DNA from: Candidatus Kapaibacterium sp. | GTDB lineage: Bacteria > Bacteroidota > Ignavibacteria > Kapaibacteriales > UBA4661 | Direction: 5' to 3' | NCBI GenBank assembly: GCA_025358765.1 | Contig: JANYIG010000318.1 | Coordinates: 1-42,252 of the forward strand | DNA: 42,252 nt | In this document: in pieces, positions 9,495-42,252 of the stretch | How positions within the stretch are numbered: position 1 is the stretch's first letter | How the letters are laid out: every line of letters starts with the position of its first letter | Program-made: the position numbers and the translations under genes | Notes under the pieces: model-generated | The model's input: only the letters and a program-made list of their open reading frames with translations | What the model was told of the DNA's origin: nothing | The model's database searches: none

Positions 9495-9521
9495 AGTTCT
9501 GTAAGTGAAAGCATACAGAAT

Positions 9522-9598: not shown

Positions 9599-9608
9599 TC
9601 AAACATAT

Positions 9609-9650: not shown

Positions 9651-9700
9651 TCGTACTCTCCACCGGACTACCTATTTCAGGGCGACATTAGGTTAAATTT

Positions 9701-10369
9701 ATGTCGAACTATGACCTCACACCACTGCTTCTTACGCTCAAACTGTCTTCGCTGACAGCTTGTCTTCTCTTCGTATTTGGAATGCCGCTTGCATACTGGC
9801 TTGCATACACACGCTTCATCTTAAAGCCTGTTATAGAAGCATTTGTGGCAATGCCGATTATTCTACCACCAACAGTACTTGGTTTTTATCTTTTGGTGCT
9901 ATTGGGCAATACAAGCCCGCTTGGGAGGTGGCTTCTTGCAACATTCGATGTGCAACTGGTGTTTAGCTTCGCGGGTTTAGTGATTGGCTCGATACTCTAC
10001 AGCTTGCCGTTTATGATTCAGCCCCTGCAAGCAGGATTGGAAGCCATTCCGAGAGAGTTTATCGAATCGGCGCGGGTGATGGGAGCTTCGCGGTTGCAAA
10101 CGGTGGGACGGGTGATTTTGCCAACGATGCGACGGTCGGTGTTGACGGGCTTAGTGCTAAGTTTCGCGCATACTGTGGGTGAGTTTGGCGTGATTATGAT
10201 GATTGGCGGTAACATACCGGGTGAAACCCGCGTGGCATCTATCGCGGTGTACGACGAAGTGCAAGCGATGAATTATTCTGCGGCAAATTTTTATGCGATA
10301 GTGTTGCTTCTGGTAAGTTTTCTTATCTTACTGCTGGTTTATAGTACAAACCGCCGTTTTTTTCGATGA
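9701..10369 (+). CDS. modB: molybdate ABC transporter permease ModB
   Basis: This is an inner-membrane permease of 222 aa, close to the usual ModB length of about 225-230. It has five or six hydrophobic segments and the cytoplasmic coupling loop ESARVMGASRLQTVGRVILP (EAA motif). The segments MPIILPPTVLGFYLL, SFAHTVGEFGVIMMIGGNIPG and the TRVASIAVYDEVQ end are strongly characteristic of ModB. It normally works with the binding protein ModA and the ATPase ModC, but neither is next to it here; they must be elsewhere or be replaced by another system. Its stop overlaps the next start by 4 bp (ATGA), so translation is probably coupled. Confidence 0.9.
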   Translation: MSNYDLTPLLLTLKLSSLTACLLFVFGMPLAYWLAYTRFILKPVIEAFVAMPIILPPTVLGFYLLVLLGNTSPLGRWLLATFDVQLVFSFAGLVIGSILYSLPFMIQPLQAGLEAIPREFIESARVMGASRLQTVGRVILPTMRRSVLTGLVLSFAHTVGEFGVIMMIGGNIPGETRVASIAVYDEVQAMNYSAANFYAIVLLLVSFLILLLVYSTNRRFFR

Positions 10370-11370
10370 AATTTTATTCCGCTCAAGTATTTAAGTCTTC
10401 CGTAATGAATCTGCTGCAATCCTTCGTCGTTGTTGCCTGTTGCTTATTGTATGCTGCTCTCGTATCTGCTCAAGAGCGTGGCAGTGAAACGCCGTTTGGT
10501 ACAATGGTGGTTGTAGGGATGAAAACAGCGCCGTTTCCGCATCCCGCGCGTTCGGGGGGATATACCTATAACGGAAAATTTTTTCCGGCTGCAAAACATT
10601 ACAGCGATAGCAGTGTAGCAATAATGATTCCACGCGGTGTTGAGATTGCGGGAACGCTGGATGTTATCGTATATTTGCATGGCTGGAACAACACGATTGA
10701 CAGTGCGAACGAGCAATTTCGCCTTTTTGAACAATGTGCCGCAAGCCAAAAAAATGCTGTCCTCGTATTTCCTGAAGGACCCGCAAACGCACCAGATTCC
10801 TTCGGTGGCAAGCTCGAAGACCCCGACGGGTTGAAGAATCTTCTTACGGAAGTTGTGGGGAATTTGGAACGGCAACGCGAGCATAAATCGTCGCTTAGCA
10901 TCGGAAAAATTATTCTTGCCGGACACAGTGGCGCGTACAGAGCAATAGCGGCAATGCTGGATAGGGGTGGTATGGCGGGGCAGATTCACGAAGTATGGTT
11001 GTTTGATGCACTCTACGGGCAATCGGATGTATTTTTGCGGTGGATTGAAACGGATATGCCGCGCGTGAAGGGAAGATTTATCACGATTTATACCGATGGT
11101 GGTGGCACAAAAGAACAAACCGAAAAGCTTATTGCTGAATTGCGGAAGCGTGAGAATAGTGCTACGGCTATCGTTACCGCCGAAGAGCTTACGGTAGATG
11201 CTAACGCGATGAAGCAAATACTGAAACAACCAGGGACATACTTCATTCATACAGATTTGACGCATAACGGCGTTATTGCACAACGCCAACAATTTCAACG
11301 CTACGCAGAGACAAGCTGCTTACAGGCTTTGCAGACAATTCCTTCCAAGAACACAAATAAAAAGAAATGA
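10366..11370 (+). CDS. secreted alpha/beta-hydrolase-like protein
   Basis: A hydrophobic Sec signal (about 17-36, ending ALVSAQ) precedes a hydrolase-like fold. The strand and oxyanion region IVYLHGWNN (101-109) and the nucleophile elbow GHSGAYR (S188) are clear, and a late histidine in HTDLTHNG (near 304) could complete the triad. The elbow GHSGA is shared with PHB-depolymerase-like or esterase-type hydrolases, but no substrate can be named. ATG 10366 overlaps the modB stop; ATG 10405 would give a shorter signal-peptide start and is also possible. The 4-bp overlaps at both ends tie it to modB and the downstream transporter in one operon. Confidence 0.65.
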   Translation: MKFYSAQVFKSSVMNLLQSFVVVACCLLYAALVSAQERGSETPFGTMVVVGMKTAPFPHPARSGGYTYNGKFFPAAKHYSDSSVAIMIPRGVEIAGTLDVIVYLHGWNNTIDSANEQFRLFEQCAASQKNAVLVFPEGPANAPDSFGGKLEDPDGLKNLLTEVVGNLERQREHKSSLSIGKIILAGHSGAYRAIAAMLDRGGMAGQIHEVWLFDALYGQSDVFLRWIETDMPRVKGRFITIYTDGGGTKEQTEKLIAELRKRENSATAIVTAEELTVDANAMKQILKQPGTYFIHTDLTHNGVIAQRQQFQRYAETSCLQALQTIPSKNTNKKK

Positions 11371-27474: not shown

Positions 27475-29271
27475 TCACACCTTAAAGCGTTCTATTGAAT
27501 CAAGTAATTCGCTGCTCGATGTCGTAAGGTCAATGGCGCTTTCCGCGATTGCGCCTGTGAGCGTAGCGGAATCTTGTGCAACGGTCTTGATAACTTCAAT
27601 GGTTTGGCTAATCGCCCGCCCGCGTCCGGCAAGTAGCTCACTCATGGTTGCAAGCTGATTGATGCTGTTCGCAACCGCCGCCGTGCGTGTAATGATGCGC
27701 TCTAACGCATCGGCAGCTTTTGCTGCAGCATTTTTTCCTTGTTCTGCATTTTTTGCAGAAGCCTGCATTGATTTAACAACTTGCTGCGTTTCGTGTTGAA
27801 TTTGGGTAATCATTGCCGATATTTCTTTGGTCGCTTGTTGTGTGCGTTCGGCAAGTTTGCGTACCTCGTCGGCAACCACAGCAAAACCTCGTCCTTGCTC
27901 GCCGGCACGAGCGGCTTCAATAGCGGCATTCAGCGCAAGCAGGTTCGTTTGGTCAGCAATTCCTTCAATCACTTCAATCACTTCGCCAATTTGTTCACTG
28001 CTCTTGCCAAGCGCCTTCACCGTACCCACGGATTGGTTCACCACTTCGGCAATCGCATTCATACCGGCAATGGCATCGGAGACGACACGTCCGCCCTGTT
28101 GTGCATCATTGCTCGCTTCAGTAGATTCACGAGCCGTGTTTGATGCTTGCAACGAACTTTCGCTAATGACCGCAATAATCTCATCCATTTCGCTCGTGAC
28201 CGCATTAATTTGAAGCATTTGATTCTCTGCCCCTTTTGCCATAGCACCCGAACTGGACGTAATATTTACACTAACGAGCGCCGTTCCCTGTGCTGCTTGG
28301 ATTACATTCTCAATCAATTGGCTGATATTATACACAGCCAGATTGAAGCCTAATGAAATATCTTGAATAACGTCGTTCGTATCATTGTGCTGCAATTGAA
28401 CGGATAAATCGCCCTTTGCGAAATCCTGCATTGCCTCCAAAATACGTCGCGCCGATTCTTCCAAATAAATTTGTTGTGCTTGAAGTTCGCTGCGAGCACG
28501 TTCGGCTTCTTTTGCCATTTCTTCAGCTTTCGAGATGCGCTGCGCCTCCTCAAGCGCATGACGAATACTGACAACCATCCGATTAAAGGATTTGGCGAGT
28601 ACATCCACTTCGTCGTTGGTGTTGATATCTACCGTCGCCTCAAGATTGCCTGCCGAGACTTGACCGGCAGCACGAGCTAATTTTTTTAGTGGCTGCACAA
28701 GGCGACCAGTCACAACCAGCATAATCACACCACCCACCACCACAATAGCCGCACTAATTCCTAATGCAATAAATAAACTTTGCGTAGCATCGCTCACCAA
28801 CTCTTTTCGGCTGATGCCAACAATCACTTTGCCAATAGCATTGCCTTGATACAAAACAGGTTCAACGTACAACGACACATCACCAACATCAGTGATAATA
28901 CGGTTTGCGGGTTTTGTTTCCGATTTGATAAGTGTTTTGATAGCAGCACTTAATGTTTGGTAGGTATTATCGGCTTTGTAACCAGCAATTTCTTCCCCCG
29001 CTGGATTAACAATGCTGACAAACTTTACACCCGAAAGTGATGGTAATACATCCAAAGTGGACTTTACCGCAGTAGCGTCTTCAAACATAACCCCCGTCGA
29101 GGCGTTAAAGGCTATCATTTGTGCTGTTACAAATACCTTTTCGTTCAAATATTTGTTCATTTGCGCTTTTTGGCGCTGCGGAAAGAAGGCAGCAATAAAC
29201 GCAGCAATACCCATAAGCATTACCAACACAAGCGTTACAAACTTCTTCTGGATACCAAAACGATGTTTCAT
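27475..29271 (-). CDS. methyl-accepting chemotaxis-type protein with CHASE8-like periplasmic sensor
   Basis: This is a 598-aa membrane signaller: TM1 (about 11-30), a periplasmic domain (35-155) whose pattern [21 protein letters not shown] ... GYKAD fits CHASE8 (the YfiN periplasmic domain), TM2 (170-190), HAMP (190-245), a second HAMP-like stretch, and a long MCP coiled coil. The MCP hairpin tip is canonical: [20 protein letters not shown] then [19 protein letters not shown]. It should bind CheW/CheA, but no che genes are in the window. The first 240 residues are nearly the same as those of the kinase at 29343-30836. ATG 29271 aligns with the kinase start; ATG 29280 is possible. YfiR-like genes lie upstream. 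Confidence 0.88.
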
Positions 29272-29301
29272 AGTGAGCAATAATTCAATAAAAATGGGTA
29301 T

Positions 29302-29316
29302 TGACGCATTGCGTCA
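29302..29316. repeat. 15-bp palindrome TGACGCATTGCGTCA (copy 1)
   Basis: The seven-base arms TGACGCA/TGCGTCA match perfectly around a central T. It lies between the kinase stop and the methyl-accepting gene start. The matching stretch ahead of the paralogous kinase gene aligns on both sides but lacks the complete palindrome. Confidence 0.7.
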
Positions 29317-29342
29317 GCCAATCAGAGAGAGTAGTAATGCAT

Positions 29343-30836
29343 TCAAGCGCTCAAAACGTCTCGCGGTACGCCTTGCAGTACGCCTTGTGGTACATCCATA
29401 TTTTTCGGCAATTCGGCAATGAATGTCGTCCCCTCACCAACTTGACTTTCTGCCCAAATTTTACCACCGTGTAAATCTACAACACGTTTTGTAATTGCCA
29501 ACCCCACACCGTGTGAGGATTCGCCGGCTGTCGGTCGCGCCGAAAGACGCTGAAAAAAACCGAACAATTTCTGTTTATCTTCATCGGTCAACCCCGGACC
29601 TTCATCTTGTACTTCAAAGCGAATGGCGTTCGTCGTTGCAATCACTCGCGTCGTAATAGTCGTTTTAGGGGGAGAATATTTAATGGCGTTGGAAGTAAAA
29701 TTTTCTAAGACTTGATATATCAACATTTTATCTGCATCAAAATCAAAATTACTCCCTTCGCTCAAAAGCGTAAGCTTTTGCGATTTTTGCTCAAGATTGA
29801 GGCTGTTAGCTTCTGCAACCCGCTTCATAAGGTCTTTGGCATTGCACGTTGACTTCGAGATTTGTATTTCTCCCATTTCCATCGCCGAACTCGCCAATAA
29901 GTTTTCAATAAGCTCAATCATACGCTCGCATGTTCGGCGAAGCATACCACCAACCTCGGGAAATTCTTCGGTGGTAATATCACCATATTCAATAAGTTTT
30001 ATCGCTGCTAAAACCGATGAAAGCGGACTTTTGAGGTCATGAGAAACAATACTCATCAGTTCTGTTTTACGGGCATTTGCCGACTGGGCTATGCTTAAGG
30101 AGGATTGCACTTCTTCAAGCGCACGACGAATATTGGCGACCATACGATTAAAGGAATTGGCAAGTATCTCTACTTCGTCGTTAGTGCTGATATGCACCGC
30201 CGCATCAAGGTTGCCCGCCGAAACTTGACCAGCAGCGCGAGCCAATGTTTTGAGCGGTTGCACAAGGCGGTTACTCAACACCAACATAATCACACCACCC
30301 ACCACCACGATAGCCGCGCTTATTCCTAATGCGATAAATAAACTTTGGGTGGCATCACTCACAAGCTCTGTACGGCTAATACCGACAATCACTTTGCCGA
30401 GAGTATTCCCCTTAAATATTACTGGCTCAGCATATAATGAAACGTCGCCAATATCAGTAATCCTACGATTTGCGGGTTTTGTTTCCGATTTGATGAGAAT
30501 TTCAATTGCACCATTTAATGTTTGATACGTATTATCGGCTTTGTACCCAGTAATTTCTTTTCCTACCGTATCAATAATGCTTACAAACTTGACACCAGAG
30601 AGTGATGGCAAGACATCCAATGTAGCTTTTACCGCATCAACGTCTCCAAACGCAACACCCGTAGAAGCATTGAAGGCTATCATTTGCGCCGTCACGAGTA
30701 TTTTTTCGTTCAAATATTTATTCATTTGCGCTTTTTGGCGCTGAGGAAAGAAGGCAGCAATAAACGCAGCAATAGCAATCAGCAACACCAGTACAAGTGT
30801 TACAAATTTCTTTTGGATACCAATGCGTCGTTTCAT
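29343..30836 (-). CDS. CHASE8-HAMP histidine kinase
   Basis: This is a 497-aa membrane kinase: TM1 (11-30), CHASE8-like periplasmic domain (35-155), TM2 (170-190), HAMP (190-243), HisKA with SIVSHDLKSPLS (H266), and HATPase_c with TSNAIKYSPP, QDEGPGL and SSHGVGLAITKR. The sensor half is about four-fifths identical by eye to that of the next gene, showing a duplication with different outputs. In YfiN the same kind of domain feeds a diguanylate cyclase and is held off by YfiR; here the output would be phosphotransfer to a regulator not found in the window. The last residues (GVLQGVPRDVL) are encoded by a short degenerate tandem repeat, which may be a recent extension. Confidence 0.88.
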   Translation of the reverse strand: MKRRIGIQKKFVTLVLVLLIAIAAFIAAFFPQRQKAQMNKYLNEKILVTAQMIAFNASTGVAFGDVDAVKATLDVLPSLSGVKFVSIIDTVGKEITGYKADNTYQTLNGAIEILIKSETKPANRRITDIGDVSLYAEPVIFKGNTLGKVIVGISRTELVSDATQSLFIALGISAAIVVVGGVIMLVLSNRLVQPLKTLARAAGQVSAGNLDAAVHISTNDEVEILANSFNRMVANIRRALEEVQSSLSIAQSANARKTELMSIVSHDLKSPLSSVLAAIKLIEYGDITTEEFPEVGGMLRRTCERMIELIENLLASSAMEMGEIQISKSTCNAKDLMKRVAEANSLNLEQKSQKLTLLSEGSNFDFDADKMLIYQVLENFTSNAIKYSPPKTTITTRVIATTNAIRFEVQDEGPGLTDEDKQKLFGFFQRLSARPTAGESSHGVGLAITKRVVDLHGGKIWAESQVGEGTTFIAELPKNMDVPQGVLQGVPRDVLSA

Positions 30837-30909
30837 CAGAATGGGCGGTAATTCAATAAAAAGTAGTCATATTGATGCATCCAGCTAACTTCGGCAAGAG
30901 CTGCCGGCA

Positions 30910-31467
30910 TCACTGATATATTTTAGCAACCTTCAACAAGCCAGCAGAAAACTCCTGTTTTTCTATTTTAGCCCGTCGAGTATTCACAAGTACCTTTGGC
31001 TTGCCAGCTACAATACCAATAGAGACCGACGTTCTGCCGCTTTCCGTCAGTGAGGGCATTCCTGTAATGGAAAGAATGCCATTTTCTTCGCAGAATTTTT
31101 GTGCGGCGTTAGCACCGGGAGCTATGTAGATAACATCGGCATCGCCAGCTTCCTGTTCCATCTGCGACACTAAACATGCCGTTGCCTGAATACCGATAGC
31201 CTTAAAACCGCTCAACACCTCATCTTTAACTCGTGATGAAGCATCGGTATAGACAATCACGACCGTTATCTTCTTTCCTTGGAGTGTTTTACTCAAGGAG
31301 AAAACTTTTTTTAATAATACTACGTGAAGTTTGACTGGCACAAGAATTTCTTGTGCCATGCTCGGTGGGACTCCGATGATAGCCATCATGATCACAGTGA
31401 AGGCTATGACGATAGAATTAGGACGAGGCATTGAAATTCGACGCAATATGTTAGGTGACGTTTTCAT
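30910..31467 (-). CDS. YfiR-like (DUF4154) periplasmic protein, second copy
   Basis: This 185-aa protein has a signal peptide ending PPSMAQ and a YfiR-type domain. Typical stretches are KLHVVLLKKVFSLSKTL, VVIVYTDASSRVKDEVL, DADVIYIAPGANAAQKFCEENGILSITGMPSLTESG and SVGIVAGKPKVLVNTRRAK. In Pseudomonas YfiR represses the membrane cyclase YfiN through its periplasmic domain. Here it sits directly before the CHASE8 kinase gene, its likely target. ATG 31467 is chosen because it gives the same length and layout as the other copy (33087-33635); a start at 31644 would add 59 residues with no conserved content. About two-thirds of residues match the other copy. Confidence 0.8.
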   Translation of the reverse strand: MKTSPNILRRISMPRPNSIVIAFTVIMMAIIGVPPSMAQEILVPVKLHVVLLKKVFSLSKTLQGKKITVVIVYTDASSRVKDEVLSGFKAIGIQATACLVSQMEQEAGDADVIYIAPGANAAQKFCEENGILSITGMPSLTESGRTSVSIGIVAGKPKVLVNTRRAKIEKQEFSAGLLKVAKIYQ

Positions 31468-31651
31468 AATTTTAACGAAAAAATGTCGTTGCAAAAATCT
31501 CCGAACCCTGACCCAGCCGGTCTTGCCGATTTTGGCAGGGACTGGTTGCGTCAACTGCAATTGAAAAACAAGACAGAAGAAATACAAAGAGACGCAAGAG
31601 TGTCTGTCACAGGTTTTTGGCAAAAAGCTGTGTGGAATCAACACGAATTTG
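31468..31651 (-). other. 184-bp leader between LRR gene and second YfiR gene
   Basis: No convincing gene. The 60 bp next to the start align with the leader of the other YfiR gene (shared TTGACGCA and a later GATTTT...CATTTTTTC-like stretch). At 31509-31553 an imperfect hairpin, outer arms TGAC/GTCA, inner arms CCAG/CTGG and TGCC/GGCA, sits where the other copy has the 15-bp palindrome. It may act as an attenuator or regulatory site. Confidence 0.4.
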
Positions 31652-32815
31652 TTAAAATTTTATCTCGCATTTGGGTAGGAGTTTTTTAATTTTTTCTTGC
31701 TCCTCCGCCGTGAGTTTGTTACCGCTCAATACCAACGTTTGGATACTGGCAAGATTGCCAATCTCCATTGGCAGCGTTATCAATTGATTCCCACCCAGAT
31801 TCAAGGTTTGAAGCTTTTTGAGTGTTGCCACCGTATTAAACATGGCTGCAAAATTTAGCTCTGGATTGCTGCTCAACGCCAGTGTATGGAGATTCGTGAG
31901 CTTGCCTATTTCCGAAGGCAGCGCTGTTAGGTGGTTACCACCTAAATACATCATCTTGAGGTTTGCGAGTTTACCAATTTCCGTAGGAAGTGTCGTTAGT
32001 TGGTTGCTGCTCAAATTCAACGTTTGAAGGTTTGTGAGTTTGCCAATCTCCGTAGGCAGTGCCGTCAGTTTGTTATTGCTTAAATCTATAAGTTGAAGAT
32101 TTGTAAGTCCACCAATTTGCGTCGGCAATGTCGTCAGCTGATTATTCCAAAAATACAACGTTCTGAGGTTCGTGAGTTTGTCAATCTCCGCAGGCAGCAC
32201 CTTCAATTGATTACTGCTTAGATACAACGTTTGAAGATTTGTGAGTTTGCTAATCTCTGGCGGTAACGCCGTTAGCAGATTACTACTTAAATACAGCGTT
32301 TGAAGACTGGTGATTGCCCCAATCTCAGCGGGTAAAGTCGTTAGTTGATTATTCCACAAATTCAGCGTCTGAAGATTTTTAAGTGCGGAAACCGTCGTAA
32401 AAACTGAAGCGAAATTTAACAGCGGGTTACTACTCAAGTCTAATGTTTGAAGGTTCGTAAGCTTGGCAATCTCTGCTGGCAGCGCTGTTAGTTGATTGTT
32501 CCACAAATTCAGCGTTTGCAGGTTCGTAAACATCCCAATTTCCGCAGGAAGCACTTTCAATTGACTGCTTTTTAGAGTAAGCCGATACACCTTGGTAGGC
32601 TCTTTGAGCGCTTCATCAAGCGATACATATTCCTTCTGCGCTTCAAGAGCAATACTATCCAAAAGTTTCCCTCCCTGACGTAATGCGTCAGGCTTCTGGA
32701 CAGGCTGAGTATAAGCAAAGGGCGCAAAGAACTGTAGCATGACGCATTGCGTCATGATGCCAAACACAGCGAGAGGGCGCAATGTACCTATGAGTAATTT
32801 TTTTTTGTTCATCAT
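31652..32815 (-). CDS. secreted leucine-rich repeat protein
   Basis: This 387-aa protein has a signal peptide (MMNKKKLLIGTLRPLAVFG... ending FAYTQ) and about a dozen leucine-rich repeats of 23 residues. The unit is LTNLQTLNLSSNQLTTLPTEIGK, shown here as LxxLxxLxLxxNxLxxLPxxI. Two units are longer, with an inserted FASVFTTVSALKN-like segment. Such proteins bind other proteins or glycans at the cell surface. No sorting tail or anchor is visible, so it may stay in the periplasm. Two 15-bp palindromes lie inside the coding sequence, one in the signal-peptide core (IMTQCVM) and one just after it (PDALRQG). The ATG at 32926 would add 37 residues ahead of a clean signal peptide and is not preferred. 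Confidence 0.85.
   Translation of the reverse strand: MMNKKKLLIGTLRPLAVFGIMTQCVMLQFFAPFAYTQPVQKPDALRQGGKLLDSIALEAQKEYVSLDEALKEPTKVYRLTLKSSQLKVLPAEIGMFTNLQTLNLWNNQLTALPAEIAKLTNLQTLDLSSNPLLNFASVFTTVSALKNLQTLNLWNNQLTTLPAEIGAITSLQTLYLSSNLLTALPPEISKLTNLQTLYLSSNQLKVLPAEIDKLTNLRTLYFWNNQLTTLPTQIGGLTNLQLIDLSNNKLTALPTEIGKLTNLQTLNLSSNQLTTLPTEIGKLANLKMMYLGGNHLTALPSEIGKLTNLHTLALSSNPELNFAAMFNTVATLKKLQTLNLGGNQLITLPMEIGNLASIQTLVLSGNKLTAEEQEKIKKLLPKCEIKF
32676..32690. repeat. 15-bp palindrome TGACGTAATGCGTCA (copy 2, one mismatch)
   Basis: It lies inside the LRR gene just past the signal peptide and encodes PDALRQG on the - strand. Arms match at six of seven positions; it is flanked by CC/GG that extend the pairing. 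Confidence 0.65.
32738..32756. repeat. palindrome CATGACGCATTGCGTCATG (copy 3)
   Basis: Nine-base perfect arms around a central T. It lies inside the LRR gene and encodes part of the signal-peptide core on the - strand (IMTQCVM), keeping the frame open. Confidence 0.7.
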
Positions 32816-33086
32816 TATTGTTACTTGAATCGTGAAGATGATGATGAAAATTATTTCTGGGTAAGGACGCAATTCGTCCAGTACAAATCCACGACAACGG
32901 CAGCCAAGTGAGTGGCAGAGCTTCATATCGTCATTATGAGTGACGAAGGTTGTTCAAAAAACAAAGTGTCAAATGTGGGACGCGGGCAAAAGTTTGTCGT
33001 TAATTAAAGCCTTTGACACAGACGAAATCTACTGGTTGCGGCGGCGAATTTCTCTTTGCACTCCAAAAGGTTATTGTTTTTCAACC
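32816..33086 (-). other. 271-bp region upstream of the LRR gene
   Basis: No convincing gene. It holds one further palindrome copy, GGACGCAATTCGTCC at 32865-32879 (one mismatch in the arms), only about 50 nt before the LRR start. A promoter is likely here because the gap to the upstream YfiR gene is the longest in the island, but no TTTG/TAnnTTTG pair was found. Confidence 0.35.
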
Positions 33087-33635
33087 TTAAAATATTTTTG
33101 CAACCTTGAATAAATCCGATGAAAATTCCTGCTTTTCTAATTTAGAACGGGGGAGGCTAATAAATACCTTTGGTTTGCCGGCTTCGATACCAACAGAAAC
33201 TGATACTTTGCCACTTTCTGTCAACGACGGCATCCCTGTGATGGAAAGAATTCCTTTGTCCTCACAAAATTTTTGGGCGGCATTCGCACCGGGAGCTATA
33301 TAGATAACATCGGCATCACTCGCTTCTTGCGCTATTTGTGGTACTTTACATGCTGTTGCCTGAATACCGATAGCAATAAAACCGTTCAACGCTTCATCTT
33401 TAACGAACGATGAAGCATCCGTATAGACAATCACAACCTTCACTTGTTTACCTTGAAGTGTTTTGCTCAAGGATAAGACTTTTTTTAATAATACTACATG
33501 GAGCTTCACCTGCACAGGAATTTCCTGCGCCATACTTGGTGGAGCAACAGTAAAAATCAGCGTCATCACAACGAACAGTAATGATATGATGTATGAACCA
33601 GACATCGACGCAATGCGTCTGATTATTATATTCAT
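33087..33635 (-). CDS. YfiR-like (DUF4154) periplasmic protein, first copy
   Basis: This 182-aa protein has the signal peptide ISLLFVVMTLIFTVAPPSMAQ and the same domain as the copy at 30910-31467: KLHVVLLKKVLSLSKTL, VVIVYTDASSFVKDEAL, DADVIYIAPGANAAQKFCEDKGILSITGMPSLTESG. A cysteine in ATACKVPQ and one in QKFCED could form the disulfide known in YfiR. It follows the TonB receptor gene by 79 bp, and TonB receptor-YfiR neighbours are common in Proteobacteria and Bacteroidota. Inferred role: periplasmic messenger between outer-membrane state and inner-membrane CHASE8 sensors. A palindrome (33607-33619) lies within its first codons (RRIASM). Confidence 0.82.
   Translation of the reverse strand: MNIIIRRIASMSGSYIISLLFVVMTLIFTVAPPSMAQEIPVQVKLHVVLLKKVLSLSKTLQGKQVKVVIVYTDASSFVKDEALNGFIAIGIQATACKVPQIAQEASDADVIYIAPGANAAQKFCEDKGILSITGMPSLTESGKVSVSVGIEAGKPKVFISLPRSKLEKQEFSSDLFKVAKIF
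33607..33619. repeat. palindrome GACGCAATGCGTC (copy 5)
   Basis: Perfect six-base arms around a central A, inside the start of the first YfiR gene. The second copy of that gene encodes a similar RRISM here without a complete palindrome. Confidence 0.6.
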
Positions 33636-33677
33636 AATTCCCTGAAAAAAGTGTTCTTGAGAAAATCTTCCAACCCG

Positions 33678-33705
33678 TGACGCAATGCGTCAAGGCAATA
33701 CGTCA
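33678..33705. repeat. 15-bp palindrome TGACGCAATGCGTCA (copy 6) plus half site
   Basis: Perfect seven-base arms at 33678-33692, followed by a half copy GCAATACGTCA at 33695-33705. It lies between the TonB receptor stop and the YfiR start. Confidence 0.7.
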
Positions 33706-33714
33706 ACGAAATAC

Positions 33715-35907
33715 TTAGAAACGCAAACGATACGAAGCTTTGAGTACAATTTCGCGTGATGATCCGGGCAAAACTGCGTTCCCAGTGTTGTAAGGCTGCA
33801 CAAAATCGTAGTTTGAGCCAAGTGCGTCGTACACACCTACGCCCATATCTAATCCCTGAACCTTAAAAGCATTTTTATAGTGAATAAACACATTCAAAAG
33901 CGCCACAGATTTTGTTTCTTGAACAGTTTGAGCACCCTCAACAAACAGTTTGAGCGTAGAAACGGCATAGCGACTGCCCAAAAAAACAAACGATGGATTG
34001 ATACTCAAACCAACGGCTACGTCGGAAAGATTAAATGATGAATTGAGTGTGATTTTATGAGGGGCAAAACCCAAGACCACGTTATCATTCGTAAAAAGTG
34101 TTTCCTGTTTACCGTTTGTGTTCGTTCGGTAGCTCCAAACGCGATAGGGATTCTGCATACGAACACTGTCGGAAAGTCCGTCGTTGCTTGCTAGATAGAA
34201 TGAGTAATTTACATTTACACTTCCCCACGTATCTTTGAAAAAATACTCCAACTCCACCCCGCGTGTTTGCGTACGGGCGTAGTTTATGTATCCCCCGCCG
34301 CCAAAAATAATGGCATCACTTATCGAAACGTTAAAAATATTAGCAGAGACAAACATATTATATTGCAATTGATACCCAAGCTCTATTTCTAATGCCGTGG
34401 TTAATTCTGGTTTGATGTTCGGGTTTAGACGGATGTTTTCTATAGAAGGTGCGCGGAAATTCTGCCCGAACAATGCCTTCACATTAAAATTACCGATAGT
34501 TTTTGTCAAACCTAACCACGGCACAAGCGCTAATGGCACAGCGCTATATTTGTCCAACCGCAAACCGGCATTGATATTCACAAGATTCGTCGTGAGGAGT
34601 GTTTGCAAAAACACCCCGAAATTATTGTATTGCACCGAACGGCTGCTATTTCCGCGCCCATCATTCCAAAGCGATGATGGTGGATCAACTGATGAAGCGT
34701 TCCCATTATCAATATAATATTCGGTGCCAAGGGTAAAAAAGAGATTTTTGGAGACATCTGCTGAGATTGCAAGACTGCCCAAAAGCCGCTCAACGGTTTT
34801 ATCAATAACCAAAAAATTGAAATCAGAGGCAGGATTTATCGCTGAACTGTCCGCAAGGTTCCACGGTTGTTGGCGCGTATAATTCAGGCGTGGAGAGAGT
34901 GTTACTTTGTCCGAAATTTTCCATTCATACCGAGCATCAGCGACAAGTGAGGTAAAGTTGGTGCTGAAGGTTCGTGGCAATGACGTTGTTCCAATACCAT
35001 TTCGCATCGTGGTATTATAGCGGTCGTAAAGGACACGCGCTTGAAAATCACCCGCTTTTACGGTCGCATTCACACTGAGCGGTGAAATTGTTTGGTTGTC
35101 TGCCATTGGAAACGAAACCGTGTCCTCCAAACCTTTGTAGGCACGGTCACTGGTGTTTGCTTTCCCTACGAATGCGGACACGCCAACGGCGACCTCACCA
35201 AATTTCTTTCCAAAGCTGATATTTCCATTCAAGCGCCCAAAAGCATCTTGCATTTGGCCAAAATTGCCCGAAACAACTACTCCATCTATATCCTGCGGCG
35301 CACGAGTTATGATATTGATAACGGTAAGCTCGGCAAAACCACCATAAAACGAAGACCCGGGTCCGCGGATAATCTCTATCCGCTCAATTTGGTCGAGCGC
35401 AAAACGATTGCCTATCGGAACAGTAGCAAACAGAAAATCATTGATTTGCAAACCGTCTATCATGACAAGCGATTTCCCTTCGTGCGCCCAGTTACCGCGG
35501 ACTCCAATTCCTATCACGCCTTGAATATCACCACCAAACTCAAAACCCGGTACCATACGGAGTACGTCTGTAAGGTCGCGGGCACCAGAGTTCTGAATTT
35601 CATCCCGCTTAATAAGCGTAACCACACCCGGAACATCTTTTTTAGAAAGAGGCTTTTTTGATGCCACTTGCAATAAATCAATATCGAGTAATAAGTCAAA
35701 CGAGATATTATCGAGGTCTCGAATATCAATTTTATCAAGGTCTTGCGCCTGAATATTGTTTACACCCATCAAAATGAGTAAAACAATGGTCAAAAATATG
35801 CAGCTGGAGTACGCTCCGGCTGTGTGGCGAGCCGTCTCCGGCTGGGTTTGCCAACGCGACAGAAAAAGAATGCAACGTGTCATATTTTTGAGTAAAAAAA
35901 TGTGCAT
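33715..35907 (-). CDS. TonB-dependent outer-membrane receptor
   Basis: This 730-aa receptor starts with an N-terminal export signal, then a DIDLLQVASKKP segment typical of this receptor subgroup. A plug domain follows (about 90-205) with VTLIKRDEIQNSGARDLTDVLRMVPGFE-like sequence, VRG, LVMIDG, IERIEIIRGPGSSFYG and INIITR. The 22-strand barrel fills the rest and ends in an aromatic residue (ASYRLRF). It would import or sense a ligand at the outer membrane; the ligand is unknown. The ATG is 5 bp from the stop of the giant TIG gene, so the two are probably co-transcribed. The signal peptide is interrupted by a hydrophilic stretch (residues 22-35) encoded by a GC-rich palindromic segment; the hydrophobic core resumes at CIFLTIVLLILMG. 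Confidence 0.9.
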   Translation of the reverse strand: MHIFLLKNMTRCILFLSRWQTQPETARHTAGAYSSCIFLTIVLLILMGVNNIQAQDLDKIDIRDLDNISFDLLLDIDLLQVASKKPLSKKDVPGVVTLIKRDEIQNSGARDLTDVLRMVPGFEFGGDIQGVIGIGVRGNWAHEGKSLVMIDGLQINDFLFATVPIGNRFALDQIERIEIIRGPGSSFYGGFAELTVINIITRAPQDIDGVVVSGNFGQMQDAFGRLNGNISFGKKFGEVAVGVSAFVGKANTSDRAYKGLEDTVSFPMADNQTISPLSVNATVKAGDFQARVLYDRYNTTMRNGIGTTSLPRTFSTNFTSLVADARYEWKISDKVTLSPRLNYTRQQPWNLADSSAINPASDFNFLVIDKTVERLLGSLAISADVSKNLFFTLGTEYYIDNGNASSVDPPSSLWNDGRGNSSRSVQYNNFGVFLQTLLTTNLVNINAGLRLDKYSAVPLALVPWLGLTKTIGNFNVKALFGQNFRAPSIENIRLNPNIKPELTTALEIELGYQLQYNMFVSANIFNVSISDAIIFGGGGYINYARTQTRGVELEYFFKDTWGSVNVNYSFYLASNDGLSDSVRMQNPYRVWSYRTNTNGKQETLFTNDNVVLGFAPHKITLNSSFNLSDVAVGLSINPSFVFLGSRYAVSTLKLFVEGAQTVQETKSVALLNVFIHYKNAFKVQGLDMGVGVYDALGSNYDFVQPYNTGNAVLPGSSREIVLKASYRLRF
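35803..35843. repeat. GC-rich double hairpin inside the receptor signal peptide
   Basis: Two short hairpins, AGCCG/CGGCT with a 4-nt loop (35830-35843) and GGAG/CTCC-type arms (35803-35820), sit side by side. They are far richer in GC than their surroundings and encode PETARHTAGAYSS on the - strand. This looks like a small palindromic insertion that kept the reading frame. Confidence 0.45.
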
Positions 35908-35912
35908 TCCGT

Positions 35913-38900
35913 TTAACGACTAATCATAAACATTGCAGATATGCGCTTTTCACGTGTTTCTACGACTACGGTGTATGCGCCTTGTGCAAGGCTATTTAAT
36001 GCTGAAGTTATTATATGTTCCCCAACCTCTTGTGCATCTTGCTGAAGTGTTTTTATTAAGCTGCCCTTCATATCCAAAATACGAATTGTGACGGTTTCGG
36101 CTTTTTCTTCTAACGAATAGGCAATTGTGATGTTATCGGATGCTGGGTTCGGGTAACATTTCACTGTGCCTGGGGCAATAGGAGGAGTTGTCGGTGGAAC
36201 AACCCCGTTCGGAGTAAAGAGAAACCGTCCGGTAGATACTGCCACGCCAAGTGGTGAAACAACCACAATATTACCGCTTGTTGCACCCGATGGCGGTATA
36301 GTAACCAAAAGTTCTGTCGAGCTTTTTACGCTGAAAAGAACAGGTACGCCACCAACAAAGACAGCATTTGCACCACTAAAATTCGCACCCGTTACGATCA
36401 CCATCGTACCGACATCACCTTGTGTTGGCGAAAAAGAAGCTATGGATGGCGACGACGTAATAAACGTAAAGGTCGAAGTTGTGGTTACCACGCCAAGCGC
36501 GGTGGTCAAACCAATAATGCCAAACGCACCCGTTTGTGGAATAGTAATGACAACTTGCGTGGAACTCAATGCTTCAAAACTTACAGGGACACCGCCGACA
36601 CTGGCTTGCGTCGTACTACTCAGATTCTGTCCGCTGATTATCAGCCGTGTGCCGGGTCCGCCTCGTGAGGGTGCAATTGCTGTAATTGCTGGCATCAATG
36701 GCATACCAGTTGACAACGCCACCCCGCCGGGGGTGGTTAGCCGTATAATGTCTGTTTGTGATGCGCCTGGCGGGATGGACGCGGTGACTTGTGTTTGGTT
36801 CACCACATTAAATTGAACTGTTATCTGCCCTATATTTACACTCATCGTGTTGGCAAAGTTTATGCCCGTGATTCTCAATATCACTCCTTGTCGGCTTTGA
36901 ACAAAGCCCGCCGATTCAATATTTGGTGGCGGGACAAACTGGAATGATTGCGTGGATATTCCTACTCCCCCACTGCTCGCAATAGTAATGTTCCCATTTG
37001 CCACGCCACTTACAGGAATAACAACAGTAATTTGACCGTCGGAATTAACGGCAAACGGTATGCTAACACCGCCTATAACAACGCTACTGCTCCCGCTAAA
37101 GTTTTTCCCTGTTATTATTATTGACGTTCCAACCGCTCCGTTTGCCGGCGTAAATGACGTTATCGTCGGCGCAGGAATAAAGGTAAAGCCGGGCAATGTT
37201 GCTGTTCCATCTGGCGTTGTCACCACAACACTACCGCTTGCACCTCCGCCAATAATTGCCGTTATCTGCGTATCGGAACCGACGACAAAACTCGCTGCTG
37301 GTGTTCCACCGAAACTCACGGCAGTTGCACCGGTAAAGTTTGTTCCGATAATCGTTACCGTCAACCCTGCTCCAGCACTTGTAGGTGTGAACCCCGAAAT
37401 AATTGGAGCAGAAACACTAGTAAATCCTGGGCTTATCGCTGTCCCGCCGGGCGTAATTACCGATATGCTCCCAGTCGTTCCCAATGCCGATAGCACCGCC
37501 GTTACGACTGAGTCAGAAACTACTGTAAAACTTGCGGCTGCCACGGTTCCTGTTGTACCACCAAATCCAACAAACGTTGCACCTGTGAAATTTTTTCCAG
37601 TGATTGTTATCACTACCCCAGCCAGTGCTCTTTTGGGAGTAAACAACGTTATCAACGGTGGTGGAATCAATCGAAAGCCTGCTCGTGTTCCCGTTCCACC
37701 CGATGTCGTAACGGAAACATCACCACTCGTTCCGCCAGCAGCTACTACCGCAGTGATTTGGGTCGGGGAAATCACCGTGAAACTTGCTGCCGTAACAGCA
37801 CCAAAACTAACTGCCGTTACATTTGTAAAGTTTGTTCCCGTCAATGTTACCGTCATTCCAACTCCAGCGCTCGTTGGCGTGAAGTTGGTAATTGTTGGTG
37901 GCGCGAGGAACGTAAAACCGCCTCGCGTCGCCGTACCAGCAGGAGTCGTAACCAACACATCACCACTTATCGTACCGGCAGCGACAACCGCTGTTATCTG
38001 TGTTGAGGAAACAACAACAAAACTTGCCGCTGGCGTACCACCAAAACTCACCACCGTCGCCCCCGTAAAGTTTGAGCCATTGATTGTTATTGTCGTTGTC
38101 GGTCCAGCATTCGTTGGTGTGAAACTGCTAATCGTAGGAGATGGAAGAAACGTAAAACCAATTGCATTTGCAGTTCCACCCAATGTTGTTACTGCTACAC
38201 TACCCGTCGCTCCGGTAGATACTACCGCCGTTATTTGTGTTGGAGAAAGCACCGTAAACGACGTTGCGGCTACTCCACCAAAACTGACACCTGTTCCGGT
38301 TGTGAAGCTTGTTCCCGTGATAGTAATTGTCTTCCCTGTACCCGCGCTTGTCGGCGCAAAACTTGTGATACTCGGAACAGGAATAAATGTAAAGCCTGCT
38401 AATGTAGCTCTTCCGTTCACCGTGGTAACGGACACTGAACCACTTACGCCGACTGGAACTACCGCTGTTATTCGTGTTGGGGAAATCACGGCAAATCGTA
38501 TTGCAGCAACAGTTCCCGTAGCACCGCCAAACCCCACAGCGGTCACATCAATAAAATCCGTTCCATTGATTGTCACCGTGGTTCCGGCTCCCGCACTTGT
38601 TGGCATGAACGACAATATTATCGGCTGCGATGGAATATAGGTAAAACCCGCTAAGGTAGCCGTTCCGCCGGCGGCTGTAACAGTAACACTTCCACTCGAA
38701 GTGCCAGAAGCTACTGTTGCTGTTATCTGCGTCGGAGAAATCACGGAGAAATTTGCTACGGCTGTGCCGCCAAACTTTACTGCCGTTACGCCGATAAAGT
38801 TTGTTCCGGTAATCGTTATCACATCTTCAGCGAGAGCACTTGTGGGGCTAAAACTCGTAATGGTTGGTGCTGAAAGAAATGTAAAGCCTTCTTTCGTCGC

Positions 38901-41900
38901 CGTACCACCCGGTGTCGTAACGAGTACACTGCCACTGGCTCCTGTTGCCAAAACTGCTCGTATTTGTGTAGGGGAAACAACGGTAAAACTTGTTACTGCT
39001 ACGATTCCTATTGTGCCTGTCGTGCTGCCAAAACCTACGGTTGTTGTTCCCGTGAAGTTTGTTCCAGTAATCGTCACCGTTGAATTCAATCCGGCACTGG
39101 TTGGCGTAAAACTTATAATCGTTGGTACCGGAATGAAGGTAAATCCGCCAAGCATTGCCATCCCACCTGTTGCAGTAATAGAAACCCCACCCGTTGCGCC
39201 CGTTGCAACAATGGCATTTATTTCTGTTGGAGAAACTACCGTGAAACTTGCCGCCGCTACACCGCCGAAGCTCACGGTTGTCACGCCAATAAAGTTTATT
39301 CCTCGAATTGTTACGGTTGTTCCTGACCCTGCCCCTAATGGAGTAAAGCCTGTAATGATTGGCGTTGGAATAGACGTAAAGCCACCGAGTGTTGCTGTAC
39401 CACCGGAAGTTGTTACGGCAATATTACCGCTTGCCGCAATTACCGCTGAAATCTGTGTTGGAGAAAGCACAATAAAACTGGTCGCTGGTACACCACCAGA
39501 ACTCACCGCCGTCGCACCCGTAAAATTCGTTCCCGTGATAATGACCGTCGAACCGGCTGTTACCGTCATCGGGCTAAAATCCGTTATTGTTGGCGCAGGA
39601 ACAAAGATAAATCCTGCCAAACTTGCTGCACCGCCCGGTGTTATTACGGATACATTACCCGTAGCCCCCGTGCCGAGTACAGCCGTTATTTGCGTCGGAG
39701 AAATTACCGTGAAACTTACAACGTTCATACCACCAAATGTAGCGGCGGTTGCACCAGTAAAACCTGTTCCTGTGATTGATACGGTCATTCCAGGACCACC
39801 GCTCGTTGGCGTAAAACCCGTGATTGTCGGAATAGGTGGAATAAATACAAACCCCGCTAAACCACCCGTACCATTCGGCGTTGTCACCTCAACACGTCCG
39901 CTTGCACCGCCAATAGCCACGACCGCTGTTATTTTTGTTGGTGAAAGCACCATAAAACTTTCCGCCGCTACGCCACCAAAACCTACGGATGTCACATCTG
40001 TGTAATTCGTACCCGTGATAGTTATCGTCTCACCAGGACCGGCACTTGTGGGCGTAAAACTCGTGACCGTTGGGGCAGGAATAAATGTAAAGCCCCCTTG
40101 TAACGCCTTGCCGCCAGGGTTAACAACAACAACTAATCCGCTCGACCCAGCCAAAATCGGTACGACGGCATTTATTTGTGTTGGCGAAACCACCGTGAAG
40201 TTCTTCACCGTTGAATCCCCAAAACTCACCAAAGTTGTTCCCGTAAAGTTCGTACCCGTAATGGTTATTATCTGCCCAGGTTCAGCACTCATCGGCGTAA
40301 AACTCGTAATTGTCGGCGCTGGGAAATACGTATAACCTGCCAAACTCGCCGTTCCGCCCGGAGTCGTCACCACAACACTACCGCTTGCCCCCGCACCCAC
40401 AACTGCTGTTATTTGTGTGGAAGAGCTAACCGTAAAAAATGTTGCCGCAATACCGCCAAACGTTACTGCCGTTGTACCAGTAAGGTTTGTCCCTCTAATT
40501 GTAATAAACTGACCTGTTCCACTTGTTGTTGGTGTAAAACTCGTAATTGTCGGTGCCAAAAAGTACGTAAAACCTGCCAATGACCCTACTCCATTGGGCG
40601 AATTTACTCGCACACTTCCACTCGTTCCCGCACCCACAACTGCCGTTATTTGCGTAGGAGAAACTACCGTAAAACTCGCTGCTGCCACACCACCAAAGCT
40701 CGCTGATGTAACACCGATGAAGTTTACTCCCGTAATCGTTACGGTTGTTCCTGCTCCCGCGTTTATCGGCGCAAAGGTAGAGATGGTCGGTGGAGGGGCA
40801 AACATAAAACCTCCAAGTGTCGCCGTGCCACCAGAAGTCGTTACTGCCACAACCCCATTCAAACTCCCCGCACCGACAACTGCCGTTATTTGCGTAGGAG
40901 AAATTATCGTAAAGCTGGTTGCTGCCACGGTTCCTGTGGTGCCGCCAAACCTTACCGATGTTGCGCCAGTGAAATTTGTTCCGTTAATCGTTACCGTTGC
41001 ACCTAATGCGGCAAGTGTTGGTGAAAAGATCGTTATCGTTGGCGCTGGATAGTAAATAAATCCTGCTATCGTTGCCGTTCCAGCCGGATTGGTTACAGCA
41101 ACATTACCCGTTGCTCCTGCACCGACAACTGCCGTTATTTGCGTCGGGGAAACTATCGTAAAACTCGCTGCCGCCGTCCCGCCAAAACTAACGGCGGTCG
41201 CAAAAGTAAAGTTTGTTCCTGTGATGGTCACCGTTTGCGACGGTCCGGCATTTGAGGTTGTAAAACCCGTTATTGTTGGCGGAGCAATAAACGTAAACCC
41301 TGGTTTTGTCGCCGTGCCGCCAAATGTTGTCACAACAACACTACCAGTTGCACCCGTTGTTCCCACAACTACTGTTAGCAAATTCGAGGAAATCACGTTG
41401 ACACTTGCTGCTGGTATGCCGCCAAAACTGACTGCCGTCGCACCTGCAACAAAATTTGTTCCGTTAATCGTTACTGTTGCTCCGGATGCTGCCAACGCGG
41501 GTGAAAAATTCACGATTGTTGGGGTTTGGTAAAATGTAAACCCAGCAAGGGTAGCCGTCCCGCCCTGATTTGTGAGCGAGACACTCCCAGTTGCGCCCGT
41601 TGTCCCTACGACTGCTGTTATCTGTGTCGGGGAATTAATGGTAAAACTCGCTGTAGCCGTCCCGCCAAAACTGACTGCCGTCGTTGCTGTAAAATATGTA
41701 CCAGTAAGAGTTACGGTCAACCCCGGTCCAGCATTGACGGGCGTGAAACTCGTAAGCGTTGGCGGATCAAAGAACGTGAAGCCTGCAAGTGAACCTGTGC
41801 CGCCCAATGTTGTCACGGAAACACTACCCGTCGCTCCCACTCCTACATCTGCGGTCATCAACGTAGAGGAAATCACAGTGAATGTCGCTGCGGCGGTGCC

Positions 41901-42252
41901 GCCAAAATTGACTGCCGTTGCTCCGGTAAAATTTGTTCCGGTAATCAGTATCGTTGACCCCATTGCTGCACTTGTGGGTGTAAAACTGGTAACCGTGGGC
42001 GGAGGAACAAAAGTAAACCCTGCTAAGGTTCCTGTACCAGAAGGATTTGTTACAGAAACACTACCGCTTGCACCTGCCGCAACGACTGCTGTTATCTGCG
42101 TGGAGGACACCACCGTAAAGCTCGTTGCCGCTGTGCCACCAAAACTCACCGCCGACGTGCCAGCAAAGTTCGTACCTGTAATGGTTACAATTAGTCCCGT
42201 TCCGGCACTTGTCGGCGTAAAGCTCGTGATGGTTGGTAGTGCAAAGATAAAC
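35913..42252 (-). CDS. giant IPT/TIG-repeat secreted protein with T9SS sorting tail (partial)
   Basis: The frame is open to the right edge, so the N-terminus is missing; 2112 codons are in the window. About 25 immunoglobulin-like IPT/TIG repeats of roughly 80 residues follow one another. The unit runs PTITSFTPTSAGxGxTVTITG, TNFTGATAVSFGG, SFTVVSPTQITAVV and ends GFTF. The last three (nearest the C-terminus) are more divergent. After a proline-rich linker (VVPPTTPPIAPG) comes a type A T9SS signal: CYPNPASDNITIAYSL, VTIRILDMKGSLIKTL and a final FMISR. The protein should be exported by the type IX system and placed on the surface or released, likely as an adhesin or fibre. The TonB receptor gene follows 5 bp later. 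The starting methionine sometimes drawn at 42149 is a GTG inside the repeat, not the true start. Confidence 0.92.
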   Translation of the reverse strand, partial: FIFALPTITSFTPTSAGTGLIVTITGTNFAGTSAVSFGGTAATSFTVVSSTQITAVVAAGASGSVSVTNPSGTGTLAGFTFVPPPTVTSFTPTSAAMGSTILITGTNFTGATAVNFGGTAAATFTVISSTLMTADVGVGATGSVSVTTLGGTGSLAGFTFFDPPTLTSFTPVNAGPGLTVTLTGTYFTATTAVSFGGTATASFTINSPTQITAVVGTTGATGSVSLTNQGGTATLAGFTFYQTPTIVNFSPALAASGATVTINGTNFVAGATAVSFGGIPAASVNVISSNLLTVVVGTTGATGSVVVTTFGGTATKPGFTFIAPPTITGFTTSNAGPSQTVTITGTNFTFATAVSFGGTAAASFTIVSPTQITAVVGAGATGNVAVTNPAGTATIAGFIYYPAPTITIFSPTLAALGATVTINGTNFTGATSVRFGGTTGTVAATSFTIISPTQITAVVGAGSLNGVVAVTTSGGTATLGGFMFAPPPTISTFAPINAGAGTTVTITGVNFIGVTSASFGGVAAASFTVVSPTQITAVVGAGTSGSVRVNSPNGVGSLAGFTYFLAPTITSFTPTTSGTGQFITIRGTNLTGTTAVTFGGIAATFFTVSSSTQITAVVGAGASGSVVVTTPGGTASLAGYTYFPAPTITSFTPMSAEPGQIITITGTNFTGTTLVSFGDSTVKNFTVVSPTQINAVVPILAGSSGLVVVVNPGGKALQGGFTFIPAPTVTSFTPTSAGPGETITITGTNYTDVTSVGFGGVAAESFMVLSPTKITAVVAIGGASGRVEVTTPNGTGGLAGFVFIPPIPTITGFTPTSGGPGMTVSITGTGFTGATAATFGGMNVVSFTVISPTQITAVLGTGATGNVSVITPGGAASLAGFIFVPAPTITDFSPMTVTAGSTVIITGTNFTGATAVSSGGVPATSFIVLSPTQISAVIAASGNIAVTTSGGTATLGGFTSIPTPIITGFTPLGAGSGTTVTIRGINFIGVTTVSFGGVAAASFTVVSPTEINAIVATGATGGVSITATGGMAMLGGFTFIPVPTIISFTPTSAGLNSTVTITGTNFTGTTTVGFGSTTGTIGIVAVTSFTVVSPTQIRAVLATGASGSVLVTTPGGTATKEGFTFLSAPTITSFSPTSALAEDVITITGTNFIGVTAVKFGGTAVANFSVISPTQITATVASGTSSGSVTVTAAGGTATLAGFTYIPSQPIILSFMPTSAGAGTTVTINGTDFIDVTAVGFGGATGTVAAIRFAVISPTRITAVVPVGVSGSVSVTTVNGRATLAGFTFIPVPSITSFAPTSAGTGKTITITGTSFTTGTGVSFGGVAATSFTVLSPTQITAVVSTGATGSVAVTTLGGTANAIGFTFLPSPTISSFTPTNAGPTTTITINGSNFTGATVVSFGGTPAASFVVVSSTQITAVVAAGTISGDVLVTTPAGTATRGGFTFLAPPTITNFTPTSAGVGMTVTLTGTNFTNVTAVSFGAVTAASFTVISPTQITAVVAAGGTSGDVSVTTSGGTGTRAGFRLIPPPLITLFTPKRALAGVVITITGKNFTGATFVGFGGTTGTVAAASFTVVSDSVVTAVLSALGTTGSISVITPGGTAISPGFTSVSAPIISGFTPTSAGAGLTVTIIGTNFTGATAVSFGGTPAASFVVGSDTQITAIIGGGASGSVVVTTPDGTATLPGFTFIPAPTITSFTPANGAVGTSIIITGKNFSGSSSVVIGGVSIPFAVNSDGQITVVIPVSGVANGNITIASSGGVGISTQSFQFVPPPNIESAGFVQSRQGVILRITGINFANTMSVNIGQITVQFNVVNQTQVTASIPPGASQTDIIRLTTPGGVALSTGMPLMPAITAIAPSRGGPGTRLIISGQNLSSTTQASVGGVPVSFEALSSTQVVITIPQTGAFGIIGLTTALGVVTTTSTFTFITSSPSIASFSPTQGDVGTMVIVTGANFSGANAVFVGGVPVLFSVKSSTELLVTIPPSGATSGNIVVVSPLGVAVSTGRFLFTPNGVVPPTTPPIAPGTVKCYPNPASDNITIAYSLEEKAETVTIRILDMKGSLIKTLQQDAQEVGEHIITSALNSLAQGAYTVVVETREKRISAMFMISR
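36215..42252 (-). repeat. IPT/TIG tandem array, about 25 units of ~240 bp
   Basis: The DNA repeats with a period near 240 bp, with short near-identical blocks (for example GTTATTTGTGTTGG and CCACCAAAACTCAC variants on the + strand) recurring across the array. Units differ enough that simple slippage is not recent everywhere, but neighbouring units share wording, which suggests recombination among them. Assembly of this stretch should be checked. Confidence 0.8.

Follow-up and report, generated by a model that had tools for sequence, protein, structure and literature searches.

The stretch of DNA analyzed here (the window) is the whole of contig C58, 42,252 bases of a 4.86 Mb genome of Candidatus Kapaibacterium sp., and contains a cluster of seven genes, all on the minus strand, in the order TIG-repeat protein, TonB-dependent receptor (TBDR), YfiR-like protein (YfiRa), leucine-rich repeat (LRR) protein, second YfiR-like protein (YfiRb), CHASE8 histidine kinase (HK) and CHASE8 chemoreceptor (methyl-accepting chemotaxis protein, MCP). 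This order and common strand, as given in a preliminary description of the DNA, were borne out by the coordinates of the open reading frames (ORFs; Table 1) and by Pfam domains. From gene order and domain content we propose, with moderate confidence, that the cluster encodes a YfiR-CHASE8 envelope signaling relay in which the TonB receptor takes the place of YfiB, the Pal-like outer-membrane lipoprotein of YfiBNR. The receptor is likely the outer-membrane partner of YfiR, because the two recur in gene order and because of the fusions described below.

Recurrence of the receptor-YfiR-CHASE8 gene order

A search of 198 genomes of the phylum with PF13689 (DUF4154) found this domain in 26, including the genome of the window. 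The loci counted outside the window's family (n = 36) comprise the 33 PF13689 places beyond the window's genome plus L063, L103 and L105, with YfiR genes counted at ≥40 bits by in-house hidden Markov models (HMMs), duplicates removed by comparison of the last 120 residues and L104 dropped as a copy of L063. A TonB receptor was adjacent on the same strand at 26 of the 36 loci and a CHASE8 sensor was adjacent at 20. Neighboring genes were taken from simple ORF calling, which makes adjacency here an approximation, and loci that are paralogous are not independent of one another. At 20 loci a receptor lay no more than two genes away from YfiR and was accompanied by a CHASE8 sensor no more than three genes away (16 loci) or by a kinase fusion (4 loci). 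Chance adjacency of a receptor is about 2% per locus, as estimated from the 45 places with a Plug domain in the window's genome, assuming 1,100 bases per gene and carrying this Plug density over to the other genomes. At four of the outside loci (L171, L172, L173, and L174) YfiR forms the N-terminal domain of a histidine kinase encoded directly after a TonB receptor, and no CHASE8 match was obtained in these fusions. At another (L181:6326-7630), CarboxypepD_reg, TonB_C and YfiR are joined in one protein beside a TonB receptor.

The arrangement is also present on plasmids. The YfiR query matched five records of a plasmid collection (Sphingobium, Indioceanicola, and Pseudoalteromonas), all with a CHASE8 sensor next to YfiR at 35-65 bits by the in-house HMM (the 35-bit sensor falling under the 40-bit bar). 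The receptor directly precedes YfiR in four, and in the fifth it is split in two and separated from YfiR by an IS30 transposase. Of three plasmid sensors scanned by Pfam, all with CHASE8 over the cut-off, two are hybrid kinases and one is a GGDEF-EAL protein. Within the window's own genome, a second locus with the order receptor, YfiR, CHASE8-MCP is found at C336 and recurs in the relatives G005, G007, and G008; in G002 and G006 the pair matching the C336 receptor and YfiR has different neighboring genes.

The two CHASE8 sensors

The CHASE8 domain (PF17152) that had been expected in both sensors was identified in each above the Pfam cut-off of 27 bits: at 44.1 bits in the MCP (residues 42-154), together with HAMP and MCPsignal, and at 36.6 bits in the HK (residues 39-151), together with HAMP, HisKA and HATPase_c. 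There is no GGDEF domain in the cluster, the sensors carrying MCPsignal and HisKA/HATPase_c instead, and no YfiB (OmpA/Pal-like lipoprotein) match was obtained in the six whole proteins and the scanned end of the TIG protein, the rest of the genome not having been searched for it. The cluster was thus correctly described at the outset as being without YfiB and GGDEF, as judged by Pfam scans of its proteins.

The sensory halves of the window's MCP and HK are 82% identical over 234 residues, the likeness stopping immediately past HAMP, as compared to 45-58% in the six relatives that have both genes. This difference might point to gene conversion between the two sensory halves, but a one-clade tree test of these halves did not reject ordinary orthology (p-AU 0.258 and 0.598). 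Since the sensory halves are near-identical and their likeness ends after HAMP, a single YfiR state probably drives both outputs. The sensor phenylalanine proposed as the YfiR docking site in passages of PMC3375315 is aligned in 12 of 12 sensors compared, including E. coli DgcN. A model of the MCP sensory half (pLDDT, the predicted local distance difference test score, of 74.5) has an extracellular PAS/Cache-like fold, with WalK (Z 15.3) and amino-acid chemoreceptors as its best structural matches.

There are seven CHASE8 matches in the genome, six over the cut-off, and of these seven proteins three have a chemoreceptor output, three a kinase output (HisKA being unmatched in one) and one a SpoIIE phosphatase output. 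The only GGDEF match in the genome at E 0.001 lies away from all CHASE8 places. As the CHASE8 outputs are non-GGDEF and the lone GGDEF match is elsewhere, the CHASE8 module of this genome does not appear to be a cyclic di-GMP (c-di-GMP) device. CheW domains occur at seven places, one of them in a cluster with genes that by eye resemble CheR, CheY, CheA, and CheB, and no response regulator gene stands beside the window's HK.

YfiRa and YfiRb are YfiR-like proteins

Neither small protein reaches the DUF4154 gathering cut-off of 24.9 bits: YfiRa has no Pfam match of its own and YfiRb scores 19.2 bits (E 0.0014). The proposed family membership stands on other grounds, namely the 71% identity of YfiRa to YfiRb, the DUF4154 scores of the YfiRa orthologs and the predicted fold. 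Two of the eight orthologs exceed the cut-off (G002 at 26.6 bits and G006 at 25.5 bits), two score 19.3 and the remaining four are not listed at E 0.05. An AlphaFold2 model of YfiRa (pLDDT 83.9) matches the chains of P. aeruginosa YfiR at Z 13.5-13.9 with a root-mean-square deviation (rmsd) of 2.8-3.3 over 131-135 residues, at just 12-14% identity in the structure alignments. On this basis both YfiRa and YfiRb are YfiR-like (DUF4154-type) proteins, with a YfiR-like predicted fold. Profile-profile comparison of the YfiRa group with canonical YfiRs gave a probability of 90.8% over 81 columns. A PDB sequence search with the YfiRa profile had a designed protein as its top match and returned no YfiR; the same type of search with the genome's canonical YfiRs reached YfiR at E 0.04. 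The YfiR phenylalanine stressed in PMC3375315 is not conserved across the family, only hydrophobic character being kept at that position.

In the tree YfiRb is placed as sister to YfiRa (support 92/88, on a long branch), and is most likely a local, lineage-specific duplicate of it. Its translation probably begins at 31467, an internal ATG whose use would restore a signal peptide.

Evidence against the relay and alternative explanations

The neighborhoods of YfiR genes in the window's own family and the structural matches of YfiRa provide the points that weigh against the proposed relay. From the 10 family genomes searched (none in G001), 60 YfiR loci were classed in two batches of 50 and 10, and a receptor was adjacent on the same strand at 27 (25/50 and 2/10) and a CHASE8 sensor adjacent at 13. 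Just nine (9/50 and 0/10) combine a receptor within two genes with a CHASE8 sensor within three genes, and 33 have no adjacent receptor; among the latter are a copy in the ATP synthase operon and a solitary copy, each in 9 of 9 genomes. The suggestion that a TonB receptor takes the role of YfiB is therefore sustained insofar as the receptor is a recurrent gene partner of YfiR, and is weakened by how seldom the two occur together with a sensor in this family.

The closest relatives of the window's YfiR proteins in named records are from Candidatus Kapaibacterium and Ignavibacteria metagenome genomes, and we compared the window to eight genomes of genus g3. The TIG, receptor and YfiRa genes adjoin in all seven of these that have coverage, the contig of the eighth starting at YfiRa. 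Within the reach of the contigs, none of the eight has a CHASE8 gene beside the receptor-YfiRa pair (the G009 contig ends just after YfiRa, leaving the downstream side unseen, and in G005 the upstream side of the receptor-YfiR pair is unseen). Putative orthologs of the HK and of the MCP are each found in seven of the eight, sited elsewhere, and no YfiR lies within three ORFs of them. Because the relatives keep the HK and MCP away from the receptor-YfiRa pair, the pairing of YfiR with the sensors in the window is one that we can only infer. Among the nine genomes compared, the seven-gene arrangement is found only in that of the window, and three parts that are apart in g3 thus adjoin there, accompanied by an additional YfiR. 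Of the gene order tested for conservation, the TIG-receptor-YfiRa portion is kept, and the HK and MCP were not found near it within the limited contig reach.

A plausible, if somewhat doubtful, alternative is that YfiR is a half-size periplasmic binding protein, with the receptor importing a ligand and loaded YfiR acting on the CHASE8 sensors. Galactose-binding protein acts on Trg in a comparable ligand-loaded way. The YfiRa model matches the V. cholerae binding protein 3lkv (Z 15.6, rmsd 2.8 over 140 residues), an R. marinus substrate-binding protein (8wgl; Z 13.8, rmsd 2.9 over 135 residues), CD0873 (6hni; Z 13.7, rmsd 4.8 over 157 residues) and 3lft (Z 14.6, though with a poor rmsd of 9.8), and Foldseek alone places the R. 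marinus and V. cholerae proteins ahead of YfiR. Since binding proteins outrank YfiR as structural matches, YfiRa may have a ligand-binding role, and the four YfiR-kinase fusions fit this explanation, as does the binding of L-Trp and vitamin B6 by P. aeruginosa YfiR reported in passages of PMC4887326. However, a common fold, here a predicted one, says nothing on function, and passages of PMC3375315 describe P. aeruginosa YfiR as a repressor on genetic grounds.

It is unlikely that the cluster represents two units, one of the receptor and YfiRa and another of HK, MCP, and YfiRb that lies downstream here by chance. The location of the HK and MCP elsewhere in the relatives would agree with this, as would the LRR and YfiRb genes, which separate the receptor-YfiRa half from the HK/MCP half, and the 160-base gap that precedes the LRR gene. 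Scans for promoters and terminators at operon borders gave counts no higher than in shuffled sequences, and so speak neither for nor against it. Against the two-unit explanation, YfiRb is sister to YfiRa, and the receptor-YfiR-CHASE8 order recurs elsewhere, including with an MCP at C336 and its counterparts in three relatives. An ordinary nutrient-uptake locus, with a receptor that merely transports and sensors that detect the substrate themselves, would suit the PAS/Cache-like fold modelled for the MCP, in which direct ligand binding is common, but is very improbable given that it leaves unexplained both the fusions and the repeated occurrence of YfiR next to receptor and sensor genes.

Proposed mechanism of the relay

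In the YfiR-CHASE8 relay that we favor, an outer-membrane ligand would engage the TonB receptor, and TonB-driven movement of the plug or transport would alter periplasmic YfiR, with the receptor either holding YfiR or handing over ligand to it. YfiR would then be released from, or load onto, the membrane-distal face of CHASE8, near the conserved Phe of TGV-x-F, and HAMP would relay the change to two outputs simultaneously, kinase activity and CheW/CheA signaling. If the analogy with YfiN holds, YfiR would repress the sensor by default.

Other proteins of the cluster

The TBDR has a Plug domain at 64.4 bits (Pfam cut-off 23.9) and no match to an STN or FecA-like signaling domain. The LRR protein has numerous LRR matches, and a scan of the C-terminal 599 residues of the TIG protein identified Por_Secre_tail (45.1 bits) and TIG (138.2 bits); as the window is the whole contig, the TIG protein runs past its end. 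Beyond the chemoreceptor are sbcD/sbcC-like genes, named by eye only.

The TIG and LRR proteins were each considered as a general substitute for YfiB and rejected, as other receptor-YfiR loci are without them: TIG is found only at the locus of the window's clade, and LRR adjoins YfiR in only two of the eight relatives. These distributions also disfavor the idea in the preliminary description that one or other might share the role of YfiB. The LRR protein is probably a dispensable accessory, judging by its gene neighborhoods.

Table 1. Genes of the cluster in the window, listed in the order of the minus strand.
Gene product	Coordinates	Strand	Basis
Giant TIG-repeat surface protein with type IX secretion system (T9SS) sorting tail; 5′ end missing at contig end	35913..42252	-	Pfam; ortholog adjoins TBDR in 7/7 relatives with coverage
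TonB-dependent receptor (TBDR), Plug; proposed outer-membrane input	33715..35907	-	Pfam
YfiRa, YfiR-like periplasmic protein	33087..33635	-	Identity to YfiRb, orthologs, AlphaFold2 fold
LRR protein, secreted; start probably near 32812; probably accessory	31652..32926	-	Pfam; neighbor of YfiR in 2/8 relatives
YfiRb, second YfiR-like protein; likely lineage-specific YfiRa duplicate; likely start 31467	30910..31644	-	DUF4154 below cut-off, identity, tree
CHASE8-HAMP-HisKA-HATPase_c sensor histidine kinase (HK)	29343..30836	-	Pfam; putative orthologs in 7/8 relatives
CHASE8-HAMP-MCPsignal chemoreceptor (MCP)	27475..29280	-	Pfam; putative orthologs in 7/8 relatives

Other YfiR and CHASE8 loci

Several further loci were noted in the course of these comparisons. 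In all nine genomes of genera g1 and g3, a YfiR-like gene, as judged by position and size, lies in the F-type ATP synthase operon between the genes for the delta and alpha subunits (L053:9377-9889, on contig C89 of the window's genome, L138, L139, L140, L141, L142, L144, L146, and L213); the delta and alpha neighbors were confirmed by Pfam at the three loci scanned (L053, L139, and L213). The same nine genomes each have the solitary YfiR-like gene, which has neither a receptor nor a CHASE8 sensor next to it (L054:4549-5091, L115:1496-2020, and L204-L210). At L207 an ORF two genes past it weakly matches the receptor profile (45 bits), and in the window's genome there is a weak Omp85 match next door.

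At L137 a HAMP-guanylate cyclase (4640-6121) and a HAMP-kinase (9159-10913) stand on either side of a receptor-YfiR pair, and both match our CHASE8 profiles but not Pfam CHASE8 at E 0.01. A CHASE8-HAMP-SpoIIE phosphatase is encoded near YfiR and a TonB receptor at L057:5644-7239 and L121:9910-11442, its best NCBIfam match being the biofilm phosphatase SiaA (247 of 700 bits); the SpoIIE locus of the window's genome additionally has an FAD amine oxidase. YfiR and a CHASE8 kinase are encoded directly downstream of a UvrA-domain gene (Pfam) at L055, on contig C247 of the window's genome, and at L131, and the same layout was seen at L130, L133, and L134, judged by gene size only.

Relation to known systems and significance

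The YfiBNR system of P. aeruginosa (AwsXRO, TpbB) and yfiR-dgcN-yfiB of E. coli share with the window a periplasmic YfiR, a CHASE8-HAMP inner-membrane sensor and an outer-membrane partner. They differ in that the partner in YfiBNR is YfiB and the output is GGDEF, whereas in the window the proposed partner is a TonB receptor and the outputs are a kinase and an MCP. The preliminary description considered that such a YfiR circuit might be undescribed, which is not so for much of it. According to passages of Malone 2012 (PMC3375315), divergent Yfi systems are mostly without YfiB, divergent YfiR-YfiN[PAS] modules have kinase, HPT, GGDEF-EAL, and MCP outputs, and Thauera has two YfiRs with one sensor; the window resembles these modules in its loss of YfiB, its swapped outputs and its paired YfiRs. 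"TonB" has no occurrences in the main text of PMC3375315, and neither a SpoIIE output nor YfiR fusions appear in those passages.

NCBIfam holds models named for a TOL_0244 TBDR (NF053590), a TOL_0243 YfiR-like protein (NF053591) and a YfiR-associated kinase (NF053592), and these names imply the same combination of receptor, YfiR and kinase as in the window. Scores of the window's proteins against this trio are below cut-off for the TBDR (78.3 bits, cut-off 645) and the MCP (62.7 bits, cut-off 194); YfiRa and YfiRb have no match to it at E 0.1, and for the HK the kinase model is not among the best 25 of 93 families listed. The YfiR at C247 of the same genome scores 120.8 bits (cut-off 125). With so much covered by Malone 2012 and the NCBIfam trio, the cluster is a variant of described systems, and the fresh part is the link between receptor and YfiR together with the fusions.

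Titles and abstract openings in the open PMC literature disclosed no paper on a system of YfiR and a TonB receptor, a survey that did not extend to papers with mere co-mentions, such as PMC9611778 and PMC8959810. Passages of PMC6304351 and PMC9788540 report that OmpS of Alcanivorax dieselolei, a TonB receptor and relative of TOL_0244, is an alkane sensor and chemotaxis trigger. TOL_0244 of Thalassolituus is described in part of PMC6304351 as sevenfold up on n-C28 vs. Tween 80, and "YfiR" has no occurrences in the text of that paper. As TonB receptors, OmpS and TOL_0244 are like the TBDR of the window, with a reported role in sensing in the case of OmpS.

For TonB receptors of the FecA-FecR type, the way in which information on the cargo reaches the inner membrane is known, the receptor in FecA-FecR-FecI signaling across the periplasm. 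The proposed relay is alike in that a TonB receptor would signal across the periplasm, and differs in that the window's receptor has no STN match and the go-between would be YfiR. We tentatively suggest, at a little under even confidence, that TonB receptor-YfiR-CHASE8 is a general route from the outer to the inner membrane, apart from FecA-FecR and YfiB, with YfiR as the intermediary and freely interchangeable outputs (kinase, hybrid kinase, chemoreceptor, SpoIIE phosphatase, or GGDEF-EAL), and that here one receptor drives both a kinase and a chemoreceptor, essentially uncoupled from c-di-GMP. If true, the receptor-YfiR-CHASE8 cassette would be a second route by which TonB receptors report. 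The cassette recurs in the sampled phylum and on plasmids of Pseudomonadota, there are cultivable hosts, e.g., Sphingobium and Thalassolituus, and the route could bear on the triggering of alkane chemotaxis by a TonB receptor reported in passages of PMC6304351 and PMC9788540.

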